DNA of 64,000 nucleotides from Thermoplasmatota archaeon (GTDB taxonomy: Archaea > Thermoplasmatota > Penumbrarchaeia > Penumbrarchaeales > Penumbrarchaeaceae). The notes under the pieces were generated by a model. That model did no database searches and was not told where the DNA came from. It saw nothing but the letters and a program-made list of their open reading frames with translations. Every line of letters starts with the position of its first letter. Position 1 is the stretch's first letter. A program made the position numbers and the translations under genes. This document shows, in pieces, positions 11,501 to 49,791 of this stretch. The DNA lies in the NCBI GenBank assembly GCA_029762535.1, contig JARVGK010000012.1, forward strand, positions 1 to 64,000, in the 5' to 3' direction.

Positions 11501-11670
11501 GTGAAGGTCAGGGCGAGTATATTGCCTGGGCGGAGCTTCGGGTCGTCCCTGAGTATGGAGATGTACCTCTGGACGAGGACCCATGTCTTGCCGGACCCCG
11601 CACCGGCGGTTACGACCCGGTCCCTCTCGAGCACAAGAGCGTCCCTCTGCCGTGGTGTTGGGCCGTTCAT
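8524..11670 (-). CDS. UvrD/RecB-type helicase-nuclease, AddA-like
   Basis: The 1048-residue product is a superfamily 1 helicase with a C-terminal nuclease. Visible motifs in order: Q-motif region TPRQRDAL, Walker A GAGSGKT (residues 22-28), motif Ia ALTFTDKAAAEMR, motif II VDEFQDTDP (about 375), motif III VGDPKQSIYGFR, motif V SLMTIHAAKGLEWP and motif VI LLYVACTRAKDHL. The C-terminus has VVIDFKTGSR (about 995) and QVQRYVRAV, the RecB-family nuclease core. Length and order fit the AddA subunit of AddAB. The start ATG overlaps the stop of the AddB-like gene (ATGA), so the pair is co-translated. Role by family: DNA double-strand-break end resection. Archaea usually use HerA-NurA, which makes this pair notable. 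Confidence 0.9.
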   Translation of the reverse strand: MNGPTPRQRDALVLERDRVVTAGAGSGKTWVLVQRYISILRDDPKLRPGNILALTFTDKAAAEMRAKVGKALRDMSAADPARYEPMLDDLLSADISTIHSFCSRIVRSEPLSLGLDPDPEVLSEAGARKLFDEAFNELLRKSGDHSASIRRLIVDHGVLMLREAMHGMIACRGSSRIDLSSEEAIHRSLSFLDASLRLMMGTAEDGLPTLSRAIRELGSLPRPAGEDNATRLVEVLSGVIDMVSQEEDPGSIVRAFSRVHRLFLTGKGQKRSPRVLGKKEVWKGSIDVMRTHLGTVVDFAFDNKDLLSYMKDGLDRRTRRTISDLAAVYASLENEYARAKRAKRALDFDDMVSLALRLLKGPGIKALEALRSKYSHIMVDEFQDTDPRQWELVRLIRGEGGTARLFLVGDPKQSIYGFRSSDVRIFSEAREMLEGDSVVLDRNFRSRREIMEFANSLFPSVMGEGGSRWGVPFEPLDAVKSDGARLNIIGVAGREEEEFREGVAVARLLKRALREGWPVLDGNEGDERPIEIEDIAILVRGRTRLEHYERGFRSEGLPYVVYKGKGFFERQEISDVIQLLEFLCCPVNDVALASVLKGPLFSLDDEELFRMSSFPGLTLLQKLRSSPDHSPHGDRLLEYIKLARTYPAHVAVGKIISDGAMYAMMDGRRGCRNLDRLIEIVTQTRGTLFDLRDELREMAEGQSGEGEPPLSSKNAVSLMTIHAAKGLEWPMVVLMGMHHLPKGSDRSFVRVDPDRGLTVKVFDPDTGETVRTPSHVEAALSREELEGEEAKRLLYVACTRAKDHLVLSGRIPAPGDNDMNPKGLMALLTGSVPIDWNAMKEGKLEWSGLELELIAHDRIVEDDSTETVRTTRTGTVNEKLVLPIKTSGDEVIIRPSETDPSTVDGTHLDAGGICSPDQFGTMVHEVLSGKDPHRAALEMGYPEEEIRIGPTAQSMESLVPEGALRSFDEISLLSSVEGERMRGRIDRLLKMRDGSWVVIDFKTGSRQPHHEEQVQRYVRAVSRITGDNAKGMVIYQDGAIEVGEGNEG

Positions 11671-14645
11671 TCCTCATCCCTCCTGCATACGTCCTTGAAC
11701 TGGCAGTAAGTTCTATTGGGGCATCTGTCCGGGGTGTCGAAGGCCCCGCTCCTCACCGAACGTGCTATGTCCAGGGCGGTATCCAGGGCCCTTTCCATGG
11801 CTGAAATGGAACCGGAGGCATCGTATTCCAGACCTTTGCCGGAGCCTCCCATGACGTATTCCCTCTCGACCCCCCCTCTTTTTCCGACCCAGTAATATCC
11901 CCCTCCCGCGGCCGACCATCCTTCGTGCAGGCTCCGTATCGCTGCGGAGTACAGGGGCACCTGAACGGACCTCTTCCCATCGAAACTCGACCTGCTCCCC
12001 GTCTTGTAATCCCATATTCTGAAAGCATTCGCTCCTTCGATGTTCGCCGAATCGACCCTGTCTATGAAACCACCGAATAGGATCCCCCCCCCATCCTTCG
12101 AGAGGGTCAGGGGCTCGGACCTGCCGAAGGATAGCTCCGTGTACCTGACAGAGAAGGGGCCGGTCTGCGCGCATTCCTTTTCCAGGTACTCCCGCAGCAG
12201 GCCCTTTTCCCCTTCTGCTCCCACCAGGAGGTCCGAGAGAGCATCCCAGAATGGGCCGTTGTAGGGATAGGAGGAGATCACCTCCCTGGCCGAGGCGAGC
12301 ATAAGGGGCCAAGCCTCCTCTATCTTTTCCGGGCCCAGTGATGCTTCCCCCTTCTCGTTCCATCTCCTGTGGAAACCTTCCAGGATGGAATGGATTATCG
12401 TCCCTTTCCGATCCGGAGGCACGTCCGGGTCCAGCTTCTCCACCGGGGATATTCCCAGCACGTAGCGGACGAAGAAGTCGTAGGGACATTTCCGGTAGCT
12501 CTCCAGCTGGGATGCGGACCATATATGGTCGGGGCCGAACCTCCGCTCGAGCACTTCGAGGAGCGATGTGTCGATCAAGGGACCTTTTCCCCTGCAGTTG
12601 ACCCCGTCGAGGAGGGCCGCCCTCTTGCGGTACCTTCCCAGGACCTCCTCTCCACCATCGATGATTTCGAGGGAAGTGGAAGGGTCTATGGGCGCGGGCC
12701 CGGACCCGCTGAGGTCCGATGCGTCCTCTCTGTAAGATGATATGCGCCTCAGGAGCTCGGTCCTCCCAACGGGTTGCTCTCCGAGATCGTATGGTCTCGT
12801 CTCCAATGCTTCGAGGAAAGGGCTGAGCTGAACGGGGGATCCCCCTTCGGTCATGTGATGCGATATGAAGACCCTGTCGCATGTGGTCATGCAGATGGCG
12901 AGGTCCTCCAGCTCCTCCCTCCTCTCCGGATGTTCCCTGAGGCCCAGTGCCGACCTTTCTGCGCTGTCCATGGGTCTGAAGTCCGTCGGCCTCATCGGGA
13001 CCTCTCCTTCGACCGGGGACTGGACCACCAGTACTCGAGCCCTCCTTGAGGTCTGCTGTTTTATCTTCCCCACCCACACGCCGGAGGTTTCCCTGCCCAC
13101 CTTCCTGCCCTGGACCCTGCGGCGAAGCCTCTCGACGATCTCCTCCATCCCCAATGAAGCATTGTGACCTGGCTCGATCGAGGGCAGCTCGGATATGGCC
13201 CTGTCAAGCATGGACAGAGCCCTATGTCCTATATCCTCCTGGTCCCCGGCGGTGGGCCGACAGACCCTGAGTTCGGAGAGGATCCGCCGGATATCCCTGG
13301 CCCTCTCTCTGTGGTCGATGCCGTTGACGTTGAGGCCTTCCAATCTCTTCAGGAGCCACTCCAGGGCCGGTATCGCTTTACCGCAGAGGTCCTTGTACCT
13401 CCCGTCAGGCCGCGACAGATGGTCCTCAAGGGGCTCGATCCAATCCTTTTCAATATCCCTGCCTCCGAAGACCATCGCCTCCCTGAAGAGCAGGTCCATC
13501 TCCTCTCCCGATACCTTATTTTCGTCCTCGGTTCCGATCTGTACGTTCATGAGGGTCAGCGCACGGGTCAATTCCTCCGACCTCATACCTTCACGGTGAG
13601 GTGAGATCAGCTCGAGGAACCCTGACACGGCTGGGACCTCGATCAGTTTAATGAAGGGATCGGAATCGAAAGGGATGCCGTATTCGTCGAATATGATTGG
13701 GATGAACCTCTCGTATAGGTCGCCTCCCGGGGTGACCATGGATATGTCCTTGGGATCGAGTTCTTCCTCGACGATAAGCTTCTTGATGAGCTTGCAGGCG
13801 CACCTGAGCGATGATATGCGGTCCTCGCCCTGGATGGAGTGTATGGTGCCATCATAGGATATACTGTCTCTGAACGCGGTCCCTGCTATGGGGACCCCCA
13901 CCGCGCCGCAGGAGGATTGCGGAACGTGAATTCCGTCCAGATACGAGGGGCATGATCTCAGAGGATGTTCCAAGCACACAGCGTTCGAGCAGTTCCTCAG
14001 TACGCATCGCATCATATCCGAGTAGGAGGGGTCCATATTGCCCAGCATGTACGTCTTGAAACGCAGGTTCGCCGTTATCGACGGATCGTCCACTATCATC
14101 CTCACAACGGCATCGGGCACCATCTCCTCATCTATCATACCTTCCCTTTCAAGGATATCCAGGTATTCCCGATATATCGAGCATAGCTCCGAGGACCGAC
14201 CCGTAGAGGCGATACTGTCCAGATCCGCAGGCGACGTTCGGTTCATCAACAGTTCCTTCAACGCCTTGGACACGTATCCGGCGACCCCCTTGATCCCGCC
14301 TCCTTCAGGGCGCAGATGTACTATTCGCATACCCTCCATGATCCTAATGACCATGGCCTCCCTGAGATCGTCGTCCTTCACCGCCCTTTCGCCGCCGTGA
14401 AGGTCGTATAGATGGATGGCTAGCTTCCCGACGGTCAAGAGCCTGCCGGTGAAGGCCTCTCCAAGATCTCTTGAGATCTCCTTGACCATCCTCTCGGATT
14501 GCAAGATAAGATACGTACTTCCGCCGGGAGAGCGCAGGTCCTCTCCCAGGTCCTTGGCCATCGCCATCGCTCCGTCGGAAGGATGGGCGTATCCGACGGA
14601 TATCCCGGCGTCCGCTTTTATTGGAGTATCGGTTCCTGAGTGCAA
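11667..14645 (-). CDS. PD-(D/E)XK nuclease with iron-sulfur cysteines, AddB-like partner
   Basis: The start is a TTG at 14645 with GGAGGAGA upstream; no in-frame ATG gives a complete N-terminus. The 992-residue product has a long divergent helicase-like N-terminal part without a clear Walker A, as in inactivated AddB subunits. The C-terminal third is a RecB-type nuclease: SYRKCPYDFFVRYVLG (about 720), IIHSILEGFHRRW, and IWDYKTGSRSSF (about 878) with VQVPLYSAAI. Cysteines in CPNRTYCQFKDVC (about 975-988), with the cysteine at about 723, would ligate a [4Fe-4S] cluster, as known for AddB nucleases. It is the first gene of the pair and overlaps the AddA-like gene by four bases. Assignment as AddB is by architecture and context. 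Confidence 0.85.
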   Translation of the reverse strand: MHSGTDTPIKADAGISVGYAHPSDGAMAMAKDLGEDLRSPGGSTYLILQSERMVKEISRDLGEAFTGRLLTVGKLAIHLYDLHGGERAVKDDDLREAMVIRIMEGMRIVHLRPEGGGIKGVAGYVSKALKELLMNRTSPADLDSIASTGRSSELCSIYREYLDILEREGMIDEEMVPDAVVRMIVDDPSITANLRFKTYMLGNMDPSYSDMMRCVLRNCSNAVCLEHPLRSCPSYLDGIHVPQSSCGAVGVPIAGTAFRDSISYDGTIHSIQGEDRISSLRCACKLIKKLIVEEELDPKDISMVTPGGDLYERFIPIIFDEYGIPFDSDPFIKLIEVPAVSGFLELISPHREGMRSEELTRALTLMNVQIGTEDENKVSGEEMDLLFREAMVFGGRDIEKDWIEPLEDHLSRPDGRYKDLCGKAIPALEWLLKRLEGLNVNGIDHRERARDIRRILSELRVCRPTAGDQEDIGHRALSMLDRAISELPSIEPGHNASLGMEEIVERLRRRVQGRKVGRETSGVWVGKIKQQTSRRARVLVVQSPVEGEVPMRPTDFRPMDSAERSALGLREHPERREELEDLAICMTTCDRVFISHHMTEGGSPVQLSPFLEALETRPYDLGEQPVGRTELLRRISSYREDASDLSGSGPAPIDPSTSLEIIDGGEEVLGRYRKRAALLDGVNCRGKGPLIDTSLLEVLERRFGPDHIWSASQLESYRKCPYDFFVRYVLGISPVEKLDPDVPPDRKGTIIHSILEGFHRRWNEKGEASLGPEKIEEAWPLMLASAREVISSYPYNGPFWDALSDLLVGAEGEKGLLREYLEKECAQTGPFSVRYTELSFGRSEPLTLSKDGGGILFGGFIDRVDSANIEGANAFRIWDYKTGSRSSFDGKRSVQVPLYSAAIRSLHEGWSAAGGGYYWVGKRGGVEREYVMGGSGKGLEYDASGSISAMERALDTALDIARSVRSGAFDTPDRCPNRTYCQFKDVCRRDEE

Positions 14646-24784: not shown

Positions 24785-27460
24785 ATGAGGTCAAGGGCAG
24801 CTTTGGCACTGTTGATGTTGCTGTCGGGATCGATCCTATTCATGATGGACCCCCCCGTCGGGGGGATGGGAATGGACGGGTCGGGGACGGCGGGGGATCC
24901 CTACGTTATAAGAGACCTGTGGGACCTGCAGAAAATGAGAGAGGACCTTTGCGCCCACTACGTCCTCGGGAACGACATTGATGCTTCGGATACGTATAAC
25001 TGGTATGGTGGGAAAGGCTTCCTCCCCGTGGGAAATTACGAGAACAGGTTCAGGGGGAACCTCGACGGCAGGGCCCATATCATTCGGGAACTTTACATCA
25101 ATCGCTCGGATATGAACGATGTTGGACTCTTCGGTTACATCGTTACGGCGGGCTCCATCAGGAACGTCAAGATGTTTATGGCGAACATAACCGGGAACGA
25201 TCGCGTGGGCGCTCTGGCGGGAGAGTTGTCCTATCTCAAGGTGGTCTCGAACTGCCACGTTTCAGGTGAGATATATGGCAACAGATACGTAGGGGGCCTT
25301 GTCGGATATATAGACAGGGCCACTGTCTCGGACTGCTCTTCCAGGGCGGAGGTCAGGGGAGTGTCCTACGTCGGAGGGCTTTTGGGATATATCTGGTTCG
25401 GAAAGGTTCATACCTCCTGCGCTAAGGGTCTGGCGAACTCGACCGATCTCTTTTCAAGGGTAGGAGGTCTGGTCGGTTACAACAAGAACGGCACCGTATG
25501 CAACTGTTATTCCACGGCGACGGCCCAGGGTATATATCGAGTAGGGGGTCTATTGGGTTTCAACAATCACGGAACGGTTTCCAGATCCTTTTCCGCGGGA
25601 CGGACCGAGGGTGTGGACTGGCACGTGGGGGGACTTATCGGGACCTGCTACGAAGGGATCGTCACGGACAGCTTCTGGGACTGCAACAGCACAGGCCAGG
25701 GGAACAGCTCCGGGGGGGCGGCCAGCACCACGGTGCAGATGAGACATAGAAGCACATTCCTTGATGCGGGGTGGGACCTGGATGGGATGTGGTGCATGGT
25801 CGAGAACGCGACATATCCCTTCTTTCGATGGGAGGATACCGAGGACCCGGTCGCCGATGCGGGACCTGACCAGACCATCGAGGTCGGGCGTTACGCTTTT
25901 TTTAACGGTGGAGCGAGCCATGACGACACTTTCGTGTACGGCCATACTTGGCGTTTCGAGGATAAGGGCCCGGTCGTGTTATTCGGGGTCGAGGCGTTCC
26001 ACAGGTTCATGGACATCGGGACGTACATCGTTACGCTGTATGTTCGGGATCCTCTCGGAAAGCACGGCACCGACGAGATGAGCGTCGAGGTCAGGGATTT
26101 TACCGATCCCTACGCCGACGCCGGGAATAACCTGTACGTCGATGAGGGGACAGTCGTCACCTTGGATGGCAGCAACAGCCGAGACAATTACGGAATAGCG
26201 AACTTTACGTGGAGCTTCATCGACGGGTACGCCATCATCCTTTTCGGAGCGACTAACACATACAGGTTCGATGATCCAGGCCAGTACCGGGTAACGCTCA
26301 AGGTGACCGACCTCTGTGGTAATTGGGCCGTCGATACGGTCATGGTCACCGTTTTGGATACGACACCTCCTACGCCGATCGCGGGCCCTGACCGTGTAGT
26401 CAGAGGGGATACCACCATCGTGTTCGACGGGAGCGGCAGCTTCGACAACGTAGGGATCACCGGCTATACCTGGTCGTTCCATGACGGGATCGAGCATGTC
26501 GTGCTACACGGACCATCCCCGGCGCATATATTCGTCGTACCGGGGACGTACACGGTCACTCTCACCGTCATCGACGAGGTTTATAACAGCATGTCCGACA
26601 CCATCACCGTAACTGTCCTGGACCACATCCCTCCGGTGGCCTACGCCGGGGAAGATAGGACGGTCCCCGCTGGGAGGGAGGTGGTGCTTAATGGGTCTCT
26701 GTCGAGCGATAACATCGGGATCGAGAAATACCGGTGGTCCCTCGTTTACGATGAAGAGGAATTGATATTTCTTGAAGAGGAGTTCAGATCCACATTCGAT
26801 GTCGGTGGCGTATATCGGGTGTCTCTATATGTGTTCGACGCTGAGATGAATCACGACGAGACGTTCGTGACGCTGACCGTGTTGGATACCGGGGTCGTTC
26901 GAGGGACGGTCGCGGATGCCGATTCGAAAAGGATAGGGGGCGTGGACGTCGATATAGTCGCATCCGACGGGAAAATGTATTCCACGAGGACGAGGGCCGA
27001 TGGGAACTTCTCGATAGAGGTCCATTACGGGCCGTTCGAATGGACGATCTCGAAGAAGGGCTACAGGTCCATCAATGGGAGCTCGTATCTGAACGCGATG
27101 GAGGACGAATACCTGGACCTTGATACTACTCCCTTGATATGGATAGGAGGGGATGGCCCCAAAAACCCCCTGCCCTATATACTGTCATCTTTCTTCCTGA
27201 TCGTGTTGATCATCTCGATATCCGCCGGATCGGTCATGTTCTTTACCCTGAAGAGGCCGACAGGAAAGAGGGTGGATGCGGACCCGGAGGGAGATTATAA
27301 AATCCACGAAGATGTTGATCGGACCAATACCGGGTATATCCCTTCGCTTTACAAGGAGGAAGGGGTATGGACCAAGGATCCCTATACGGGATCATATCCT
27401 GAATACCGTTCATATAACCATGAGGATCCAGCGGAGGATTTGATAGAATGTCGATGGTAG
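24785..27460 (+). CDS. Surface protein with GLUG repeats, PKD-like domains and C-terminal membrane anchor
   Basis: The ATG at 24785 follows GGAG by about eight bases; the upstream GTG at 24767 would add six residues before the signal peptide. The 891-residue product has a signal peptide (MRSRAALALLMLLSGSILFM). GLUG-type repeats at about 100-320 have the form VGGLVGYNKNGTVCNCYS and VGGLLGFNNHGTVSRSFS, which build a beta-helix. About four PKD-like domains follow (about 355-700), for example FDGSGSFDNVGITGYTWSF. A carboxypeptidase-like module comes next, then a transmembrane helix at about 797-820 and a 70-residue charged cytoplasmic tail. Its first 90 codons are close in sequence to those of the next gene, so the pair arose by duplication. 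Adhesion or envelope role is inferred. Confidence 0.85.
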   Translation: MRSRAALALLMLLSGSILFMMDPPVGGMGMDGSGTAGDPYVIRDLWDLQKMREDLCAHYVLGNDIDASDTYNWYGGKGFLPVGNYENRFRGNLDGRAHIIRELYINRSDMNDVGLFGYIVTAGSIRNVKMFMANITGNDRVGALAGELSYLKVVSNCHVSGEIYGNRYVGGLVGYIDRATVSDCSSRAEVRGVSYVGGLLGYIWFGKVHTSCAKGLANSTDLFSRVGGLVGYNKNGTVCNCYSTATAQGIYRVGGLLGFNNHGTVSRSFSAGRTEGVDWHVGGLIGTCYEGIVTDSFWDCNSTGQGNSSGGAASTTVQMRHRSTFLDAGWDLDGMWCMVENATYPFFRWEDTEDPVADAGPDQTIEVGRYAFFNGGASHDDTFVYGHTWRFEDKGPVVLFGVEAFHRFMDIGTYIVTLYVRDPLGKHGTDEMSVEVRDFTDPYADAGNNLYVDEGTVVTLDGSNSRDNYGIANFTWSFIDGYAIILFGATNTYRFDDPGQYRVTLKVTDLCGNWAVDTVMVTVLDTTPPTPIAGPDRVVRGDTTIVFDGSGSFDNVGITGYTWSFHDGIEHVVLHGPSPAHIFVVPGTYTVTLTVIDEVYNSMSDTITVTVLDHIPPVAYAGEDRTVPAGREVVLNGSLSSDNIGIEKYRWSLVYDEEELIFLEEEFRSTFDVGGVYRVSLYVFDAEMNHDETFVTLTVLDTGVVRGTVADADSKRIGGVDVDIVASDGKMYSTRTRADGNFSIEVHYGPFEWTISKKGYRSINGSSYLNAMEDEYLDLDTTPLIWIGGDGPKNPLPYILSSFFLIVLIISISAGSVMFFTLKRPTGKRVDADPEGDYKIHEDVDRTNTGYIPSLYKEEGVWTKDPYTGSYPEYRSYNHEDPAEDLIECRW

Positions 27461-30400
27461 AAGGGATGAGGATGATAAAAGCGAGTAATGTGATCATTAT
27501 TTTGCTGTCCACTGCCATTATTCAGCTACTTGTCTTGCCAGGGCCCACCTCCCTGGGGGATCCGATCCCGGAGCAATCCTTCGGGGGCGGATCGGGGACG
27601 GCGGGGGATCCCTACGTCATCGAGGACGTGTGGGATCTCCAGAATATGAGCAAGGATCTCAGCGCCCACTACGTCCTCGGGAACGATATCGACGCCTCCG
27701 ATACGATCAATTGGAACTCGGGGGCGGGATTCGATCCGATCGGGACCAAAACGATCAATTTCAAGGGAAGCCTGGATGGAGAGGGACATTCCATCAACGG
27801 CCTGTTCATAAATCGTTCTGAAGAGGATTACGTAGGTTTGATCGATATATTATATTATGGAGGAAGGATCATCGATCTGAATATATACGATTCAAATATA
27901 ACCGGCGGATCCTATGTTGGAGGTCTGTCCGGGTATAACTTAGGTTATATTGAAAATTCGTCCTTTTCAGGGAGGGTCAGTGGTAAGAACTATACTGGGA
28001 TGATAACAGGATATAATATTGGAAGTATATCAGGTTCTCATACTTACGGGATCATGATCGGAGGAAATTATGTTGGAGGTATCGTAGGTTTCCAATATTC
28101 ATATTATCATTATTATTCTGGAAAGATCGAGAATACTTTTTCTGAAGCGAATGTGATAGGAAAATCGCATATCGGAGGGTTATGTGGTTCCAACACCGGA
28201 CCGATCATAGATTCTTTTTATACTGGAAATGTATCTGGCGATAAAGCTGTAGGAGGTATACTTGGCAGTATAGGAGAGGACGGATACGTCTCGAATTCCT
28301 TCTATGATGTGGATAATGTACTCATCAACGGTCGGAATCATCTGACCATCGGCGGATTGTTCCATGATGAGTATGAGGATTGGTTTAGAAACAATAGGAC
28401 CTTGAACATTTCACACTATAATGATACTTTGATACCTTCCGGAGACCATTATGAGATAAATGCTGTAGATGGAATGAAAAAATTGCTCGTTTTCTCTCAT
28501 ATCGAAGATTATAAGTTCAGATTGTCTTCGGACATAGATCTTATTATATTCCCCGGGCTACATATCCCTTTCTTTCGCGCAGCGGAATTCAATGGGAACG
28601 GATACAAGGTATACAACCTATGTCTGGATCAGGATTTTTCATATTATACTGGACTCTTTGGATTTAATTCAGGAGGTTTTATCTCAAATTTATCCATGGT
28701 CGATGTTAATGTGAAGGGTGATAATAATGTAAGTGGTTTGATAGGTTATAATCATAAGGGTGACGTCAAGGATATTCAGGTAAATGGAATCATATCTGGT
28801 AAGAATAACATTGGAGGTGTCATCGGATCAAATTATAATACGAATGTCATAAGCTCTTCAAATTTTAATGGAACCATAAATGGGGCATTCTCTGTCGGCG
28901 GTATTGTTGGTAATAATCTTGGAAATGTTTTCAATTGTTATTCATCTGTTAATATTTATGGACGGAGAAACAATATTGGGGGAATATGCGGGTCGAATAC
29001 CGGTTCGATCAAGAACTCGAACGTTTACGGGAACCTGAGTGGCGATCATAACGTCGGTGGAATAGTTGGATCGACCTCCGGTCCTGTCTCTTTTTGCAGG
29101 TCATATTCATATGCTACGGGAAACAGGTCCATAGGATGCATTGCAGGAACGAATACAGGAACTATATCGGATGTGCTATCGGAAGGATTCGCCCATGGTG
29201 ATCTATCTGTCGGTGGGATTTCGGGCAAAGCGAATGGACATATAATGAGGTCCAGATCTAAATCAAACATCGATGGTCGTTCATCTATAGGCGGAATTGC
29301 CGGAAACAGCAATCGGATTATCATGGATTGTGCGTTCTCAGGAAAGATTGTTTCGACCGGATATTCTTCGGGTGGAATAGTTGGGGACTTGCAGGGTTCA
29401 AATTGGGATAATTCCGGGTACGTGATGGATAGTGTATCCTCTGGGGAGGTAGATGGACATATTTCTGTCGGGGGAATAGCTGGTTACAGCAGCGGAACCA
29501 TCGTTGATTCATGTTCATTGACAAATGTTAGCGGTATTCTGCATGTCGGTGGCGTTGTCGGTTTGTACAGAGGAATTGTGAATAATTGTTATTACAATAT
29601 AGATAAGGTACTAATCAACGGCATACATCAGGTTACATATTGTGGCCTGTTCGATCGCCAGTATTTGGATTGGATCCAAAGCAATAAGGTTTTGAACATT
29701 TCGGATTACGGCGAATGGTTGGTTCAAACACATGATGGCTATGATGTGTCATCCATAGATGGATTAAAATATCTTCTCGGTTTTTCCCATGAAAATAATA
29801 TCCGTATAAGCATAATTGCAGATATCGATCTGTCCAATAAATATAATCTCCACATCCCATATTTTTCGGGAGAGGAATTCGATGGGAACGGTCACAAATT
29901 ATTGAATTTGACAGTAGACCAGGATTTCTCTAATTATCTCGGTTTGATAGGTTACAACGATGGCGGGACGATCAGGGACCTATCCCTCTTCCATCTGAAT
30001 ATTACTGGCCAAAGATATATTGGGGGAATTACAGGATACAACAACGGAGGAAAGATCACCAATGTATTGGTCGATGGTGCCATATGTGGAAAGGATGAAC
30101 ACACAGGCGGAATAGTCGGATACAATTCAGGCAACCTTCACAATTCTTCCTCAAGTGGAATGCTCTCTGGAAAAAATGTTGTAGGCGGTTTGATAGGAGA
30201 ACACTGGGGTTCATTGACGGATTCATATTCATCGATGAATATCAATGGCGAAGGGTCCATAGGAGTATTGGTCGGAAGAAATCATGGAAAGATATTCAAC
30301 TCATTTTATAATATAGATCAAGTTGAGATAAATGGAATGAATCATATTTATAGAGGGGGGATCTTCGATCGACAGTTCAACGATTGGATAACGAATGATA

Positions 30401-33400
30401 GATCACTTGACATCAATGATTACAAAGATTCACTTCCATTTTCGAGAGGGTTTTATGAGATATCGTCCGTTCAGGGGATCAGGGATGTTTTGGGCTTTTC
30501 GTCATCTGAAGGGCTGAGGTTTAGAATGGTTTCGGATATCGATCTCAAGGATGAGTCGGGTTTACACATCCCTCATTTTTCCGCGGAGGAATTCGATGGA
30601 AATGGTTTTACAGTATCAAACTTGAATATGGAAAATAATTTTTCAGAGAAGATCGGTTTTTTTGGAGAGGTGTCCAGAGGAAATATCAGAAACGTAGTTC
30701 TAAAGGATGTAAGGATAACCGGAACGAACCACGTTGGTTCGTTGGCGGGATCGAATAATGGCAACATATACCATTCATATTCCGAAGGTTCTATCTCGGC
30801 ATGGGACAATGTGGGCCTTTTAGTGGGAAGTAATTCAGGAACGATCTTGAATTCAAGAACGGAGGGAACCTTGAATGGAAGAAGTCGTGCAGGTCTTATT
30901 GCTGGTATGAATTATGGAGCAATTTTAGATTCATCCGTTGAAGGTATATTAAAAGGAAAGGACTTTATTGGGGGATTGGCCGGTGAGAATCGAGGTTTTA
31001 TAAATAGATCCTTTTCAACAACCCAGGTCAAAGGCAGTGTAGAGTGTGTGGGGGGCATATGTGGTATGAATACAGGATCGATCTCAGAAACCTGTTCAAA
31101 CGGAGAGGTAAAAGGTTCTGAGAAAGTAGGTGGTCTGGTGGGATATAATGGTATGTTCGGAAAAATTAAGGATTCATATTCAATATCATCGGTCGAGGGA
31201 AATAAGAATATTGGAGGTTTGGTAGGAGCCAATGAATTATATTCTTTAATATCGAATGTATATTCTTCAGGAAGGATTGTAGGCAATATGAATGTCGGCG
31301 CCATCACAGGATATAACGGTGGGACAATCAAGAACAGTTTCTGGGACAATGAGTCTTCCCTTCAGACCTCAAGCGCTGGAGGAATGGGTAAAAGCACATC
31401 GGAACTCATGAAAAACAAGACCTATACAAGCGCAGGATGGGATATGGATGACGTTTGGTGGATGATTGATACGGCCACGCGGCCAATATTGAGGATGGAG
31501 TGGTCTGAAAGTATATCCAATATACATCAATTACAGATGATGGCAGCTAATTTAAGCGCTGATTATGAACTCGTGAGCGATCTGGACCTATCATCGATCA
31601 CAGAAGAGTCGGAAATTTGGGGAACGAATCTTTCATCTGGTAAGGGATTTTTCCCAATAGGGGATATGAATGGACCATTTTTAGGCACCTTCGATGGTTT
31701 GGATTATGAGATCAAAAATTTATATATCAATAATGCCGATAAGGACAATGTTGGATTGTTTGGTTATATTGGGAAAGGAGGGGCCTTGACAAATGTAAAG
31801 ATATCTGATGTATATGTCATAGGTAATTCATATGTCGGTGGGATCGCCGGGTATATTTACTATGGATATTTGACTTTTTCATATTCGAAAGGATTTATTA
31901 AAGGAAATGAATATGTTGGAGGGATAACGGGCAGTCTATTGGGCACGACGATATCACACTCTTTTTCAGAAGGGAGCGTTAAAGGTCATGGTATCGTTGG
32001 AGGACTGGCGGGTTCGAATAATGCTGCTGGAGTGATATCGAATTCCTATTCCAATGTTGTATGTGATGGTATCATACGGGTAGGAGGTATGGTAGGATAT
32101 AATGCGGGTAAAATATACAATTCATATTCATCCGGGAGAGTAACAGGAAATGAGAGGATAGGCGGTATGGTCGGATCGGATTATGGGTTGGTAATATTGA
32201 GTTTCTGGGATAATGAAACATCAGGACAAACCAGCAGCCCGGGAGGGATTGGAAAGAATACTTCAGAGATGAAGATTAGAATAACCTTCTCAAATGCTCA
32301 TTGGGACCTATCAAATATCTGGTGTATTGCGGAAGGTTTGACATATCCACTTCTGAGGTGGCAGGATAAGGCACCTCCAATAGCCAATGCGGGAAATGAT
32401 ATAACCATCGACCAGGGAACGTTATTGAAATTTAACGGAAGCGCCAGCTATGACGATCTGATGATAGCTCAATTCGAATGGACATTTAATATCGATGATT
32501 ATGCGGTTGTATTATATGGTAAAGGTCCCACATATCTGTTCGATAGACCGGGGACCTTCCTGGTCACTTTGACCGTCATTGATGTTGTTGACCTTATCGA
32601 TAGCGATACCATTATAGTGAATGTAAGAGAGGTCGAAGGTTACGATCCGTTCCCTCCTGTTGCTAATGCGGGAAATGATATTATTATTGTCAATGGAAGT
32701 AAGGTTACTTTTGACGGCAGTGCATCTTATGATAATATTGGTATCGTCAATTATACCTGGACCTTATACGACAATAAAACGATCTTCCTTTATGGTGTGA
32801 ACCCAACGTATATTTTCAACTTTGTTGGATCATATTGTGTTACATTGAATGTAAGTGATGCTTGGGGGTCTTGGAGTGTCGATATGATCAATGTGACCGT
32901 CATTGAATTGCCATATGTCGATGAAACGTCTCCCATCTGCATAGCAGGATCTGATGTGGAGATTAATGAAAGAGAGAGAGTCTATTTCGATGGAAGAGGA
33001 AGCCACGATAACGTCGGGATCGCAAGCTATACCTGGACCTTCTTCGACGGGATCGAGGACGTGGTCCTTCAAGGGAGCACTCCCTCCCACATATTCACCG
33101 TTCCCGGAAGATACACCATAACTCTCACCGTCATGGACGAGGCGGGGAACTCCGGATCCGACACGATGACCGTGTCGGTTCGGGACATAACCCCTCCCAT
33201 CGCGAACGCCGGGGAAGATCTCGTAATTGATGAGGGATCCCCTGTCCAGTTCGACGGAAGCGAGAGCTCCGACAACGTGATGATAGTGAACTACACATGG
33301 ACCGTGATATCGGGGTCCCGAAGGACCTCCCTCTATGGCGTGGACCCTGTCCACGTCTTCGGGGATCCGGGAGTGTACGTCGTGACATTGGAGGTCCTTG

Positions 33401-33837
33401 ACGGGGCAGGTCTCACCGACAGCCATGCCATAATGATCACCGTTCTTGATGCAACACCCCCTGCCTCTGTCGCCGGTCCGGATCGGACCGTGGATGTCGG
33501 CACCCTGGTGATTTTCGACGGCAGCGGAAGTTCCGACAACGTCGGGATCGTGAATTACACCTGGACCTTCAACGACGGATCGGCCAATGTGATACTTTAT
33601 GGAATACATCCATCTCACACATTTTCGATCCCCGGGACATATACCGTCACATTGACCGTAAGGGACGAGGCGGGGAACGAGGGGATCGACTCATTTTCCG
33701 TGAATGTGATCGCCGAGGAAAAGGCAGATGACCATCTCGCCGCTCAGATCGCTGCCATGGTCATGCTGGTTCCCCTTTCAGTCCTTGTCCTCTATCTTCT
33801 GGTCCGATCGAAAAGGAGGAGGGGGCCCGAGGAATGA
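27448..33837 (+). CDS. Giant GLUG-repeat surface protein with PKD domains and C-terminal anchor
   Basis: The 2129-residue product starts at an ATG overlapping the previous gene by 13 bases, with GGAGG ten bases upstream; ATG 27466 is an alternative. A signal anchor (about residues 12-35) precedes the shared motif GSGTAGDPYVIEDVWDLQNM. Residues about 120-1640 hold dozens of GLUG repeats (GGLSGYNLGYIENSSFSG type). A larger unit carrying the FDRQYLDWIQSNKVLNISDY and EEFDGNGHKLLNL type sequences occurs three times. Five PKD-like domains lie at about 1645-2085, then a transmembrane helix (about 2099-2121) and a basic end (RSKRRRGPEE). The core is AT-rich: bases 28621-28680 hold 20 G+C of 60, while 33001-33060 hold 34 of 60. 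The switch at about 33000 falls between PKD repeats. A large adhesin-like beta-helix is the likely form. Confidence 0.85.
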   Translation: MSMVEGMRMIKASNVIIILLSTAIIQLLVLPGPTSLGDPIPEQSFGGGSGTAGDPYVIEDVWDLQNMSKDLSAHYVLGNDIDASDTINWNSGAGFDPIGTKTINFKGSLDGEGHSINGLFINRSEEDYVGLIDILYYGGRIIDLNIYDSNITGGSYVGGLSGYNLGYIENSSFSGRVSGKNYTGMITGYNIGSISGSHTYGIMIGGNYVGGIVGFQYSYYHYYSGKIENTFSEANVIGKSHIGGLCGSNTGPIIDSFYTGNVSGDKAVGGILGSIGEDGYVSNSFYDVDNVLINGRNHLTIGGLFHDEYEDWFRNNRTLNISHYNDTLIPSGDHYEINAVDGMKKLLVFSHIEDYKFRLSSDIDLIIFPGLHIPFFRAAEFNGNGYKVYNLCLDQDFSYYTGLFGFNSGGFISNLSMVDVNVKGDNNVSGLIGYNHKGDVKDIQVNGIISGKNNIGGVIGSNYNTNVISSSNFNGTINGAFSVGGIVGNNLGNVFNCYSSVNIYGRRNNIGGICGSNTGSIKNSNVYGNLSGDHNVGGIVGSTSGPVSFCRSYSYATGNRSIGCIAGTNTGTISDVLSEGFAHGDLSVGGISGKANGHIMRSRSKSNIDGRSSIGGIAGNSNRIIMDCAFSGKIVSTGYSSGGIVGDLQGSNWDNSGYVMDSVSSGEVDGHISVGGIAGYSSGTIVDSCSLTNVSGILHVGGVVGLYRGIVNNCYYNIDKVLINGIHQVTYCGLFDRQYLDWIQSNKVLNISDYGEWLVQTHDGYDVSSIDGLKYLLGFSHENNIRISIIADIDLSNKYNLHIPYFSGEEFDGNGHKLLNLTVDQDFSNYLGLIGYNDGGTIRDLSLFHLNITGQRYIGGITGYNNGGKITNVLVDGAICGKDEHTGGIVGYNSGNLHNSSSSGMLSGKNVVGGLIGEHWGSLTDSYSSMNINGEGSIGVLVGRNHGKIFNSFYNIDQVEINGMNHIYRGGIFDRQFNDWITNDRSLDINDYKDSLPFSRGFYEISSVQGIRDVLGFSSSEGLRFRMVSDIDLKDESGLHIPHFSAEEFDGNGFTVSNLNMENNFSEKIGFFGEVSRGNIRNVVLKDVRITGTNHVGSLAGSNNGNIYHSYSEGSISAWDNVGLLVGSNSGTILNSRTEGTLNGRSRAGLIAGMNYGAILDSSVEGILKGKDFIGGLAGENRGFINRSFSTTQVKGSVECVGGICGMNTGSISETCSNGEVKGSEKVGGLVGYNGMFGKIKDSYSISSVEGNKNIGGLVGANELYSLISNVYSSGRIVGNMNVGAITGYNGGTIKNSFWDNESSLQTSSAGGMGKSTSELMKNKTYTSAGWDMDDVWWMIDTATRPILRMEWSESISNIHQLQMMAANLSADYELVSDLDLSSITEESEIWGTNLSSGKGFFPIGDMNGPFLGTFDGLDYEIKNLYINNADKDNVGLFGYIGKGGALTNVKISDVYVIGNSYVGGIAGYIYYGYLTFSYSKGFIKGNEYVGGITGSLLGTTISHSFSEGSVKGHGIVGGLAGSNNAAGVISNSYSNVVCDGIIRVGGMVGYNAGKIYNSYSSGRVTGNERIGGMVGSDYGLVILSFWDNETSGQTSSPGGIGKNTSEMKIRITFSNAHWDLSNIWCIAEGLTYPLLRWQDKAPPIANAGNDITIDQGTLLKFNGSASYDDLMIAQFEWTFNIDDYAVVLYGKGPTYLFDRPGTFLVTLTVIDVVDLIDSDTIIVNVREVEGYDPFPPVANAGNDIIIVNGSKVTFDGSASYDNIGIVNYTWTLYDNKTIFLYGVNPTYIFNFVGSYCVTLNVSDAWGSWSVDMINVTVIELPYVDETSPICIAGSDVEINERERVYFDGRGSHDNVGIASYTWTFFDGIEDVVLQGSTPSHIFTVPGRYTITLTVMDEAGNSGSDTMTVSVRDITPPIANAGEDLVIDEGSPVQFDGSESSDNVMIVNYTWTVISGSRRTSLYGVDPVHVFGDPGVYVVTLEVLDGAGLTDSHAIMITVLDATPPASVAGPDRTVDVGTLVIFDGSGSSDNVGIVNYTWTFNDGSANVILYGIHPSHTFSIPGTYTVTLTVRDEAGNEGIDSFSVNVIAEEKADDHLAAQIAAMVMLVPLSVLVLYLLVRSKRRRGPEE

Positions 33838-45383: not shown

Positions 45384-46757
45384 ATGGACGAACGTATAGA
45401 AAAGAAACTTTACAACCGCAGGGTGGGAAGGACGCCTCTTGTCAGAGCAAAGGGCCTGGAGAAGGCTCTGGACATGGAGGGTCTATACTTGAAGCTCGAG
45501 GGCACGAATCCCTCCGGGCATAAATGCGACCGCAGGTCCATATACACGGTCAAGCAGGCAAAGATAAGAAAGGCCGCGGACCTGACCATAGGTACCATCG
45601 GGTATATGGCCCGGTCCCTATCTGTACTCTGCCAGATGCACGATATCGATTTCCATCCATTCATCGCCTCGGGATATCCGGATGTCGAGGTCCCGGAGGG
45701 AGGGATCAAGGTGAAAGGAACTCTCGAGGACGCCGTCAAGAAGAGCATGGAGGCCGCGAAGGCGAACGGATGGTACGATGCAAATTCGCAGATGCCCCAG
45801 AGCCTGGACGATCTCGCCTACTCCTCGATATCCCGGGAGATACATTCGTCCCTGGGACTGATACCCGCTTGCATCTCGATGTCCGTATCGTCCGGGTCAA
45901 TGGCCTATGGCATACACGCAGGGTTTCTCGAGATATCGGTGCTTGAGGATGCGCAGCGGATGCCTGTGATGATAGGTGGGACCAGCAGGTATGGGAACGC
46001 CGTTCTGGCATCATATGAAAAGGGAGCGGACAGGGTAGAACACATGGTCATCGATATCCCATCGATGAAGAGCCCGATGTCGCCGCTCTTCCATTCCGGA
46101 GGTCAGGACGGTTCCCAGGTACTGGATGCTTTCAGGGACACCGGCGGTGGCATCTTCGGTTTCGAAAGGGAGCAACTGACGGCGACGAGAACGCTTCTGC
46201 GCAGGAAGGAGGGTATAGACTGCGATCTCTATTCCATTGCGGGATTGAACGCCTTGATAAAGGCCAGGGAGAACGGCCTGATCGGAAATGGCCCGAACAT
46301 CGTCGTCCTCTCCACGGGAAGGCCCGATACCGTTGTCAGAAGGATGGCGGGATCCGAGATCGACACGCATGATCTGGCATTGACATTGGATTCCTGGCTT
46401 GGAAGGTTCACCGACCCCATCGAGGAGATCGAGGATGCCGTCCAGAACGCTTTCGATGAGGGATTCGTCATCGGAGCCTACCGGGGTGATGACCTCAGCG
46501 GGATAGTGATACTGTCCAGGATGCATTTCGATAGCTTCTTTCCAAAATATCATCTATCCTACATAGCCTCGGACCCGAGGTCCACCGGCAGGGGGATCGG
46601 CACCAGTTTGATGGACAAGGCGATCGAGCTGACCGACGGTGATTTCTCGCTTCATGTGGAACCGGACAACCGAAAGGCGATAAACGTCTACAGGAAGATG
46701 GGTATGGACGTCAAGTACCTTCGTATGCATTTCAGGAAGCCCAAGGAGGAGGCTTGA
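45384..46757 (+). CDS. PLP fold-type II (threonine-synthase-like) enzyme fused to a GNAT acetyltransferase
   Basis: The 457-residue product has two parts. Residues 1 to about 335 resemble threonine synthase, TrpB and OrtB-like lyases: GRTPLVRAKGLE, the PLP-lysine region KLEGTNPSGHKCDR, the asparagine-type region TIGTIGYMARSL and the phosphate loop IGGTSRYGNAVL. In threonine synthase the core is NPTGSFKDR; here the lysine sits one position earlier (GHK), as in TrpB. Residues about 345-457 are a GNAT domain with the acetyl-CoA loop RSTGRGIGTSLMDKA and VEPDNRKAINVYRKMGM. The fusion suggests making and then acetylating an amino acid. The stop overlaps the racemase-like gene (TGATG). The exact reaction is unknown. 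Confidence 0.8.
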   Translation: MDERIEKKLYNRRVGRTPLVRAKGLEKALDMEGLYLKLEGTNPSGHKCDRRSIYTVKQAKIRKAADLTIGTIGYMARSLSVLCQMHDIDFHPFIASGYPDVEVPEGGIKVKGTLEDAVKKSMEAAKANGWYDANSQMPQSLDDLAYSSISREIHSSLGLIPACISMSVSSGSMAYGIHAGFLEISVLEDAQRMPVMIGGTSRYGNAVLASYEKGADRVEHMVIDIPSMKSPMSPLFHSGGQDGSQVLDAFRDTGGGIFGFEREQLTATRTLLRRKEGIDCDLYSIAGLNALIKARENGLIGNGPNIVVLSTGRPDTVVRRMAGSEIDTHDLALTLDSWLGRFTDPIEEIEDAVQNAFDEGFVIGAYRGDDLSGIVILSRMHFDSFFPKYHLSYIASDPRSTGRGIGTSLMDKAIELTDGDFSLHVEPDNRKAINVYRKMGMDVKYLRMHFRKPKEEA

Positions 46758-47803
46758 TGCCCCCGAGGGTAAGGATAGACCTCAAGGCTATAAGCGACAA
46801 CGCCCGGATGTTGATGGAACTGTGTTCCAAACGATCGATATCGATATCCGGCGTGACCAAGGCGAGCGCCGGAAGCATGGAAGTGGCTCAAGCGATGATC
46901 GATGGAGGGGTAAGGGAGATCGCCGATTCACGCATCGCTAATCTGATGAGGTATTCAAAACTCGACGTTAAGAGGATGCTCTTGAGGCCCGTGACCCCGG
47001 AACAGGCCGGACCCGCAGTTGAGGCATGCGATACGAGCCTGAACACGGAACTGGAGACCATCAAGTCGTTGGGCAGAGAGGCCCTTCGAAGGGGTGTGGA
47101 GCATCGTGTGATCATCATGGTGGACCTGGGTGATAGGCGCGAGGGTGTGATGCCCCGGGATGCTACGGCGATCTGCGAGGAGGCCTCGAGCATCGATGGG
47201 ATCGATCTCAGGGGCATAGGGACGAACCTCGCATGTTTCGCGGGGATCATCCCGACCCCGGTGAAGATGGCCCAGCTGAGCCATATCGCCGAGATGGTGG
47301 AGGACAGGATCGGGCTCCCACTCGAGACAGTGTCCGGTGGAAACAGCGCCAATCTGGGAATGGTCCTGAAAGGATCGAACCATCACAGGGTCAATGATCT
47401 CAGATTGGGGGAATCCATACTCCTGGGCCTCGAGACCGTTAACAGGACTCCAGTGCCAGGTCTGAGAACGGACGCCTTCATCGTCTCGGGTGACCTCATC
47501 GAGGTCAAGGAGAAGCCCTCCAAACCCGATGGCGATGTCGGACAGGATGCTTTCGGGAACACCGTGGAGATAAAGGACGAAGGCATGCAGATAAAGGGGA
47601 TAGTCAACCTGGGTCGGCAGGACGTGGACCCTTCCGACCTCGTACCTGTCGGTGACGTGAAGGTCCTTGGCGGGAGCAGCGATCACACTTTGCTGAGCTT
47701 GAGACGATCGCTGAAGGTGGGTTCGAGCATCGGTTTCATACCCGGGTACGGATCACTTCTGCGCTGTATGACATCGCCCTATGTGGAGAAGGTGTACGTA
47801 TGA
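46757..47803 (+). CDS. Alanine/ornithine racemase-like PLP enzyme
   Basis: The 348-residue product starts at the ATG at 46757, sharing a base with the preceding stop and behind GGAGGAGG. It has the alanine-racemase N-terminal barrel: RVRIDLKAISDNARML, the PLP-lysine strand ISGVTKASAGS, REIADSRIANLMRY, MVDLGDRREGVMP, and VSGGNSANLGMV for phosphate binding. The C-terminal VLGGSSDHTLLSLR and FIPGYGSLLRCM are typical of the ornithine-racemase / YhfX branch rather than true alanine racemase. It therefore probably inverts ornithine or a related amino acid, or handles the product of the partner enzyme. It overlaps the zinc-ribbon gene by four bases. Confidence 0.85.
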   Translation: MPPRVRIDLKAISDNARMLMELCSKRSISISGVTKASAGSMEVAQAMIDGGVREIADSRIANLMRYSKLDVKRMLLRPVTPEQAGPAVEACDTSLNTELETIKSLGREALRRGVEHRVIIMVDLGDRREGVMPRDATAICEEASSIDGIDLRGIGTNLACFAGIIPTPVKMAQLSHIAEMVEDRIGLPLETVSGGNSANLGMVLKGSNHHRVNDLRLGESILLGLETVNRTPVPGLRTDAFIVSGDLIEVKEKPSKPDGDVGQDAFGNTVEIKDEGMQIKGIVNLGRQDVDPSDLVPVGDVKVLGGSSDHTLLSLRRSLKVGSSIGFIPGYGSLLRCMTSPYVEKVYV

Positions 47804-47949: not shown

Positions 47950-48636
47950 TCAGAACAATATGAACAGGACCAGGATCCAGCATACGGCGCTGACGGCTGT
48001 GGAAGTTCCGAAATATACTTTCCTGTCTATTTTCTGTATTTCCACGTGCAGGTTGTCGTATAGGGCGAACACCGGAACGGAGATCCCGCCGAGGAGGGCA
48101 GCATAGAAGGCCCTCCCGGCGATCAGGGGGAGAATGTTGACGACATCCATGATGACGAGCGTTGCCCCGGTGAAGACCGGGGTTAGTATCTGGGTCGTAA
48201 CGTATCCTATCGAGAACACCGTGAAACCGCTGATCACTCCCAGGGACGCGAGCGCCCGGACATCCTTCCTGCCCCAGAGGTTATCCATGAACACTTTTCG
48301 GCCGACGATCATTTCGAAGACCATGCCCTCGACAGCGATCGCTATCGCCGAGCATATCACGCAGGACCCTATGGGCGCGAAATATCTCATTATCGAGGCG
48401 ACAAGAGCGACAAGGAAGACCGCTCCCGTGAAGTTGAACATCCTCCTTGCAAGTATCATGAACCCAAGCCCGAACAGACCGGCCATGACCGCACCCATGG
48501 ATATGTAAAGCCCGGAAACGCTCCATTTGAGGCCTCCCAGAGTGCATTCGAGCAATCCCCAGATGGACCCCAGGAGGACAATCCCGGCAAGGACCATGGC
48601 ACGATCGATGGCGGACCTGCTCACTTTCATGTTCAT
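47950..48636 (-). CDS. Polytopic membrane protein, ECF-S-like topology
   Basis: The 228-residue product has about six transmembrane segments (MVLAGIVLLGSIWGLLECTL; GAVMAGLFGLGFMILA; GAVFLVALVASIM; GVISGFTVFSIGYVT and a final WILVLFILF). A central segment PIGSCVICSAIAIAVEGM carries two cysteines. Size and topology recall substrate-binding S components of ECF transporters, but no ECF ATPase or T component is in the window. The ATG at 48636 overlaps the stop of the lipoprotein gene, and GAGGTGAT precedes it, so it is coupled to the two exported proteins upstream. Function unknown. Confidence 0.75.
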   Translation of the reverse strand: MNMKVSRSAIDRAMVLAGIVLLGSIWGLLECTLGGLKWSVSGLYISMGAVMAGLFGLGFMILARRMFNFTGAVFLVALVASIMRYFAPIGSCVICSAIAIAVEGMVFEMIVGRKVFMDNLWGRKDVRALASLGVISGFTVFSIGYVTTQILTPVFTGATLVIMDVVNILPLIAGRAFYAALLGGISVPVFALYDNLHVEIQKIDRKVYFGTSTAVSAVCWILVLFILF

Positions 48637-49355
48637 ATCACCTCTATCTCCACGATGTCAGATATATGGAACTTCTTGGACAGATGAGGGAAGAAGCTTT
48701 TCCTACCTTCTTCGACGAGTATTCCCTGGGTCATGTCCTCCCAGCTCACTGTCCTGTTGTAACCGTCGCTGCCTATGATATTGTAAGTGTGTGAGGCCTG
48801 ATCGTTGGCTATTGTCAGGTTGATGACCTGGGACAGGTAAACGCCTTCTATGTCGTTCTCGTCGGCGTCCTTTAGCGTGACGGTATCGTCGATCATGTGG
48901 AAGGGCTGCTTCCATGTGAAGAGGTGGTCGTTCACCAATATTGTGGGGACGCTGACGGTCTCGATCTCGACCACGTTCTTGACCCTATACTTACCCGGCA
49001 GCCCTGGGAACGCGGTCATGGTATCCTCTTCCACAAGGACCCCCTTCATCATATCGTCCCAGGTGACGTCCTGATAATAATCGTCATCTGCTGTTATGCG
49101 ATACTGATGGTCCCCGGGCGAAGCGAGCCCCGTGCTGTTAACGATATTGCTGAGAGGGACACCGGTATAATCTTTACCCCCCGTGTTAACGGTAATAGTC
49201 CCGTATCCCTCGAACATCTCATCGAGCGAGATCTCCTCGCCGTTGAAGAGTATGGTCGGCCCTTGTCCCTCTTCGCTTTCAAGGCATCCGGCCACGAGAA
49301 CGGTCAAGAGGACCAAGGCCGCGGATGCCGCCAGATATATCTTTCCATCTTTCAT
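48633..49355 (-). CDS. Lipoprotein with two molybdopterin-oxidoreductase-like domains
   Basis: The 240-residue product has a lipoprotein signal (LVLLTVLVAGCLES) with the modified cysteine at about 24. Two similar domains follow, at about 30-125 and 130-240. Each ends in the same pattern: GVPLSNIVNSTGL, a DDYYQDVTWDDMMKGVLVEE stretch and KYRVKNVVEIE in the first; GVYLSQVINLT, SDGYNRTVSWEDMTQGILVE and KFHISDIVEIEVI in the second. This is the layout of the Oxidored_molyb (sulfite-oxidase/YedY) fold, but the catalytic cysteine and cofactor contacts are not visible. A binding rather than redox role is likely. It precedes the polytopic membrane protein (four-base overlap). Confidence 0.75.
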   Translation of the reverse strand: MKDGKIYLAASAALVLLTVLVAGCLESEEGQGPTILFNGEEISLDEMFEGYGTITVNTGGKDYTGVPLSNIVNSTGLASPGDHQYRITADDDYYQDVTWDDMMKGVLVEEDTMTAFPGLPGKYRVKNVVEIETVSVPTILVNDHLFTWKQPFHMIDDTVTLKDADENDIEGVYLSQVINLTIANDQASHTYNIIGSDGYNRTVSWEDMTQGILVEEGRKSFFPHLSKKFHISDIVEIEVI

Positions 49356-49356
49356 C

Positions 49357-49791
49357 TCATATCACCTCTATCTCCACTATATCCCTGACCCAGAAGGCCT
49401 TGGCCATACCTGGCAGCACGACCTTCTTCTCCTCGATGACTATGAATCCGTTACCTATGTCCTCTCCGGGCACCTCCTTGCGGTACCCGTCGGCCCCTAT
49501 GAACCTGAAGGACCTCGAACCCACGTCCTTGACCCCGGCATCCTCGAGGAGGGCCACCAGTGAGATCCCGGTCCTGCCCTCGTGCTCGATCATGGGAAGA
49601 TCTCTTTCGAGGGATCCCCAATCATACTCCTTATCGTTCACGATGAGCACATCGGTTTCCTCGGTGCTCATGGCGTTGTACACCAGAGCGCTGAACGATC
49701 CGATCAGAATTATCAGCGCAAGGACAGCAAGGATAAGATTGATCCTCGTTCCGAAGAAGCGTATCCTGCTCCCGTTTTCCTTCCCGAGCAT
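49357..49791 (-). CDS. Membrane-anchored single molybdopterin-oxidoreductase-like domain
   Basis: The 144-residue product has one N-terminal transmembrane helix (INLILAVLALIILIGSFSAL) and one outside domain related to those of the next gene: GISLVALLEDAGVKDVGS, a IGADGYRKEVPGEDIG strand pair, a FIVIEEKKVVLPG turn and the end WVRDIVEIEVI. The last residues VEIEVI are identical to those of the lipoprotein. One base separates the two genes. It is the first gene of the three; a TATA-like GATTATAGTC lies upstream at about 49838-49848. It probably forms part of one surface complex with the two downstream products. Confidence 0.75.
   Translation of the reverse strand: MLGKENGSRIRFFGTRINLILAVLALIILIGSFSALVYNAMSTEETDVLIVNDKEYDWGSLERDLPMIEHEGRTGISLVALLEDAGVKDVGSRSFRFIGADGYRKEVPGEDIGNGFIVIEEKKVVLPGMAKAFWVRDIVEIEVI

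Follow-up and report, generated by a model that had tools for sequence, protein, structure and literature searches.

We propose that a small set of genes for predicted cell-surface proteins in uncultured archaea encodes a candidate import system for the pterin-based tungsten/molybdenum cofactor (Tuco/Moco), because nearly all of the organisms that carry it possess enzymes that require this cofactor but lack the genes to make it. The inference is based on predicted folds, gene linkage and the pattern of gene presence and absence, so that we hold it only as somewhat more likely than not; activity of the system remains to be proven, and no importer of this kind is known in microbes. The locus was identified in a 64,000-nt stretch of DNA from a Thermoplasmatota archaeon (hereafter, the window), where it comprises the following features:

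49357..49791, minus strand: 144-aa protein with an N-terminal TM anchor and one PruR/SUOX-like domain (dC, about 49360-49680), the counterpart of the single-domain partner found in every homologous locus.
48633..49355, minus strand: 240-aa lipoprotein (lipobox LVAGC, Cys24) with two PruR/SUOX-like domains, dA (residues 29-136) and dB (residues 135-240).
48636..48959, minus strand: domain dB, which was used for structure prediction; near-invariant family positions are G39, D65, Y67, V71, W73, G79, F90 and I105 (domain numbering).
47950..48636, minus strand: 228-aa six-TM membrane protein with a predicted S-component-like fold; invariant residues are G23, W26, G27, E30, G34, A80, P88, G90, C95, A99, I100, E103, F107, G133, G144, T148, Q149, T152, P170 and W220, whereas C31 and C92 are nearly invariant.

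The first two genes are separated by a 1-nt gap and the second and third overlap by 4 nt (ATGA), so that the observation of a coupled operon made in the original prediction is confirmed, with the correction that the three domains reside on two separate surface proteins and not on the membrane protein itself. The flanking genes on the left are convergent, encode amino-acid enzymes and appear to be unrelated to this system: a threonine-synthase-like PLP enzyme fused to a GNAT domain (45384-46757) overlaps an ornithine-racemase-like gene (46754-47803; NF040742, 352 bits, below its cut-off), possibly representing an unknown D-amino-acid pathway. Elsewhere, the window encodes several giant surface proteins, including a very large (2129 aa), repetitive predicted surface protein with a C-terminal TM segment (27448-33837), and two adjacent genes of about 1000 aa which, by eye, resemble a bacterial AddA/AddB-type helicase-nuclease pair (8524-14645).

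The three domains detect one another in phmmer searches (dA/dB about 1e-15, dB/dC about 1e-11). None contains a cysteine (apart from the lipobox cysteine of the lipoprotein) and no cysteine is conserved in the domain family. Pfam yields only a sub-threshold hit to Oxidored_molyb (PF00174; E = 0.018, 15.1 bits against a cut-off of 24), although 26 of 84 homologous domains hit this family at E <= 0.1, with the best E-value of 8e-4. An AlphaFold model of dB built on 84 domains has a pLDDT of 96, and a Foldseek search of PDB with this model retrieved, at probability 1.00 and with TMq of 0.67-0.75 for most matches, PruR pterin-binding proteins (7kp2, 7kom and 7rkb, the latter with neopterin), followed by YedY/MsrP (some with tungsten cofactor) and sulfite oxidases. 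Thus, the sulfite-oxidase-type fold without the metal-ligating cysteine that was called in the original prediction is supported by structure prediction. Compared to YedY/MsrP and sulfite oxidases, the domain is short (about 105 aa) and lacks the catalytic cysteine. The closest functional parallel is PruR, a cysteine-less, exported protein of the same fold that binds small reduced pterins (PMC13259868). Like the domains described here, PruR of the proteobacterial PruR-DcpA signalling system is located outside the cytoplasmic membrane and is encoded just upstream of its membrane partner. However, the partner here is not a DcpA-type GGDEF/EAL protein but the six-helix membrane protein, which has no signalling domain; furthermore, the domains can occur in three copies, and the system is linked to AOR and to the loss of Moco synthesis rather than to c-di-GMP.

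The membrane protein has no match in Pfam or NCBIfam and, in particular, matches no known S-component family. Searches of PDB sequences with either the domain or the membrane protein alignment gave nothing, so that these relationships rest on structure alone. The AlphaFold model of the membrane protein has a pLDDT of 88.7. In the Foldseek search of PDB, the high-probability matches are S components of ECF transporters (5edl, 1.00; 4dve, 0.85; CbiM 5x3x, 0.84; 4huq, 0.82; 7nnt, 0.77), but the best E-value is only 0.059, and the TM-scores are modest (0.38-0.65, about 0.5). A fold search in a viral library was uninformative apart from a vitamin-uptake-type match. Loop charges indicate an N-inside topology (K+R 17.7% in inner compared to 2.8% in outer loops), and 17 of the 20 invariant residues lie in the outer half, where S components hold substrate, given outer/inner boundaries that we assigned from the helices of the model. 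ECF ATPases are not neighbors of these genes, and an EcfT-type component (PF02361) was detected in only 5 of the 25 related genomes that carry the pair (see below) and not in the genome of the window, so that a classical ECF transporter with a shared EcfT is not supported. Solitary S components that transport without ECF modules, such as BioY and BtuM, have been described (PMC11109136). With these and with ECF S components, the membrane protein shares conserved outward-facing residues, a micronutrient context and, usually, the absence of EcfT in the genome, and its predicted six-helix fold may be S-component-like, although the structural matches are weak; it differs in that there is no sequence-family match and that a separate extracytoplasmic domain protein is obligatory, and no member for molybdopterin is known. 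The CbiMN/NikMN metal ECF modules also combine an S-component-type membrane protein with a small accessory membrane-anchored protein, but in the present case the accessory protein has a predicted pterin-binding fold and no CbiQO neighbors were seen.

Among 97 related genomes, 25 encode the membrane protein, and the domain protein was found in the same 25 and, at contig ends, in two more. A profile search for the membrane protein in 14 genomes lacking it, performed without a positive control, found nothing. A scan of GTDB genomes yielded 59 further loci, a lower bound given that a single seed motif was used, mostly from Thermoplasmatota but also from MAGs labelled Anaerolineae, Clostridia, Altiarchaeota and an unclassified bacterium. 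The domain gene is located immediately upstream of the membrane protein gene in all 58 loci with upstream sequence. The minimal form of the system consists of one anchored domain and the membrane protein (the pair), whereas the trio is an expanded form found in the family of related genomes denoted f1, in three other relatives (genomes G016, G017 and G028) and in one further GTDB locus (L081).

Downstream of the pair, there is commonly a ferredoxin with several (four) 4Fe-4S clusters and an AOR-family protein (AOR in 33 of 46 loci with enough sequence), and in 11 other loci, a THEP1-type P-loop NTPase (e.g., locus L086, 8305-8826). Upstream or nearby are MobB (18 loci), a Bud32/APH-like kinase (25 loci; e.g., locus L088, 8426-9145), EamA transporters, and a second, diverged PruR-like anchored protein of about 200 aa, which is encoded upstream of the pair in 14 loci (e.g., locus L094, 8011-8619) and matches the domain family in a profile search (E = 1.7e-7). 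The kinase-like and THEP1-type genes never occur together. A Clostridia MAG has MobA directly upstream and RnfC downstream of the pair. The AOR aligns with the Pyrococcus furiosus enzyme over 600 residues, including the DxxGLD motif and the FeS cysteines.

The linkage to AOR and ferredoxin is compatible with the possibility that the pair is a membrane anchor or electron-transfer partner of AOR at the surface, in line with the scaffold for a surface redox complex suggested in the original prediction. However, in ten pair genomes, including that of the window, where the AOR-ferredoxin module is on another contig (contig C5 of genome G000), AOR was not found beside the pair and is often of a different type, and several of these genomes have the canonical short AOR type; the Clostridia locus contains MobA and RnfC instead of AOR; the domains contain no redox ligand, the membrane protein has no conserved histidine, and no haem or FeS ligands are conserved in the pair. 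We therefore consider this possibility very unlikely. Hence the interpretation given in the original prediction is partly supported: re-use of the fold as a putative binding module for a transporter-like membrane protein is supported, whereas the redox scaffold is not. What could not be seen from the sequence of the window alone is the loss of the cofactor pathway in the genomes that carry the system.

The main evidence comes from the distribution of the cofactor biosynthesis genes in the same 97 genomes. MoaA, MoaC, MoaE and MoeA are each absent from all 25 pair genomes but are present in 43, 45, 42 and 45 of the 72 others, respectively (Fisher p 3e-8 to 7e-9; these p-values ignore relatedness), and yet 23 of the 25 pair genomes encode an AOR-family tungstopterin enzyme. 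Among the 55 AOR genomes, 23 have the pair and neither MoaA nor MoaC, 23 have MoaA/MoaC and no pair, none has both, and 9 have neither. Switches occur within a single genus (g28), in which genome G032 has MoaA, MoaC and MoeA but no pair, whereas G057 has the pair and none of the four genes, and within a single family (f9; G027 vs G016). Of 45 further pair genomes, 43 lack MoaC. Nevertheless, exceptions exist: pathway loss is not always accompanied by the system, given the nine AOR genomes with neither MoaA/MoaC nor a detected pair (G001, G004, G006, G008, G009, G018, G022, G054, and G036, which carries the domain gene at a contig end), the first eight of which may possess another cofactor route, and two pair genomes (G101 and G126) have MoaC. 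Moreover, nearly all of these genomes are draft assemblies from metagenomes, and related genomes are not independent.

The absence of the pathway could also be explained if these organisms make molybdopterin by an unrecognised route and the pair is an accessory with another role. Orphan molybdoenzymes without the pathway are a recognised puzzle for which new biosynthetic components have been suggested (PMC6147048), ThiF-like proteins are encoded near AOR in 8 loci, and one MoaD/ThiS-like ORF, identified by eye, follows an AOR in G016. However, four unrelated pathway families vanish together, no candidate replacement enzyme set recurs in the loci, and cofactor import requires fewer assumptions, so that this alternative appears unlikely.

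Similarly unlikely is the uptake of the metal itself (tungstate, molybdate or thio-forms), with conserved cysteines of the membrane protein as ligands. The linkage to tungsten enzymes and the conservation of C31, C92 and C95 are compatible with this possibility. So is the lack of an identified WtpA among the hits to the oxyanion-binding-protein family (PF13531) in pair genomes: these were read one by one, and some were typed by NCBIfam and the rest by eye as phosphate (PstS), sulfate or thiamine (ThiB) types. A strong hit in the genome of the window (contig C32) proved to be sulfate-type, whereas WtpA was confirmed in two genomes without the pair, one with the pathway (G032) and one with MoeA (G054). 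However, metal without molybdopterin would be useless to organisms that lack the synthesis and insertion genes, the predicted domain fold is that of a pterin binder and not of an oxyanion binder, and C92 is replaced in loci L055 and L056. The WtpABC, ModABC and TupABC systems also supply tungsten/molybdenum enzymes, but these are ABC oxyanion importers, and the PF13531 hits read in pair genomes look like other substrate types, which also counts in favor of uptake of the cofactor.

Independent support comes from Pelolinea (locus L093), where a Moco/Tuco riboswitch (RF01055, 69.8 bits; 9377-9496, minus strand) is located in the divergent region beside the pair, 5' of a gene for a single lipoprotein with a PruR/SUOX-like domain (8769-9215, minus strand). 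This riboswitch lacks the P3 stem, the form associated with tungsten cofactor (PMC2408646); its position upstream of this lipoprotein gene suggests that "sulfite oxidase" genes under P3-lacking Moco RNAs in other bacteria may encode pterin-binding rather than catalytic proteins.

Taken together, these observations lead us to hypothesize that the organisms that carry the pair are auxotrophs for the tungsten/molybdenum pterin cofactor and that the pair is the uptake route for tungstopterin/molybdopterin or a late precursor. In this view, PruR-like domains, anchored outside the cell by a TM helix or lipid, would capture the pterin and pass it to the outward-facing pocket of the S-component-like protein, which would carry it inside; there it would be loaded into AOR-family and some DMSO-reductase-family enzymes, with nucleotidylation by MobA/MobB where needed. 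The absence of MoeA favors, by inference only, import of a metal-loaded or otherwise late form, and the nearby kinase-like or THEP1-type proteins might trap the imported compound by phosphorylation, although the latter is speculative. The analysis itself shows the folds (by prediction only, with modest match scores for the membrane protein), the obligate gene pairing, the absence of the pathway genes, the presence of cofactor-using enzymes and the riboswitch at one locus, whereas the ligand and its binding by the domains, transport and its direction, the energy source, for which no energising module was identified, and the role of the kinases are inferred. Against this hypothesis, the pocket of PruR is thought to be too small for Moco (PMC13259868), and free Moco is very unstable outside proteins (PMC9793310). 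It therefore remains possible, albeit rather unlikely, that the pair takes up or senses another pterin, such as a reduced monapterin/neopterin-like compound or a folate/methanopterin-like molecule, and is only indirectly tied to AOR. This alternative is in line with the domain fold match and with the small pterins bound by PruR, the closest match with a known ligand, but does not explain the absence of MoaA, MoaC, MoaE and MoeA in all 25 pair genomes, the Tuco-type riboswitch or the MobA/MobB neighbors, and no signalling domain is seen on the membrane protein.

The components of the system have known folds, and S-component-like micronutrient uptake is itself an established theme; the assignment of such a system to this cofactor would be new if proven. 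In the literature searched, we found no description of this pair and no prokaryotic Moco importer. The cofactor is regarded as too unstable to be shared, uptake of exogenous Moco has been shown only in Caenorhabditis elegans, by unknown means (PMC9793310), and the membrane passage of pterins is stated to be unknown (PMC13259868). Surveys list several hundred organisms with part of the Mo trait, many with molybdoenzymes but no complete pathway, and offer no explanation (PMC6147048). It is conceivable, although we put this forward tentatively and as somewhat less likely than not, that the pair is the first prokaryotic importer of the mature tungsten/molybdenum pterin cofactor and accounts for at least part of these orphan molybdoenzyme organisms. 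A defined two- or three-gene surface system that replaces the pathway would make that question testable and would imply cofactor exchange between cells in anoxic communities, in particular, cross-feeding in anoxic sediments.
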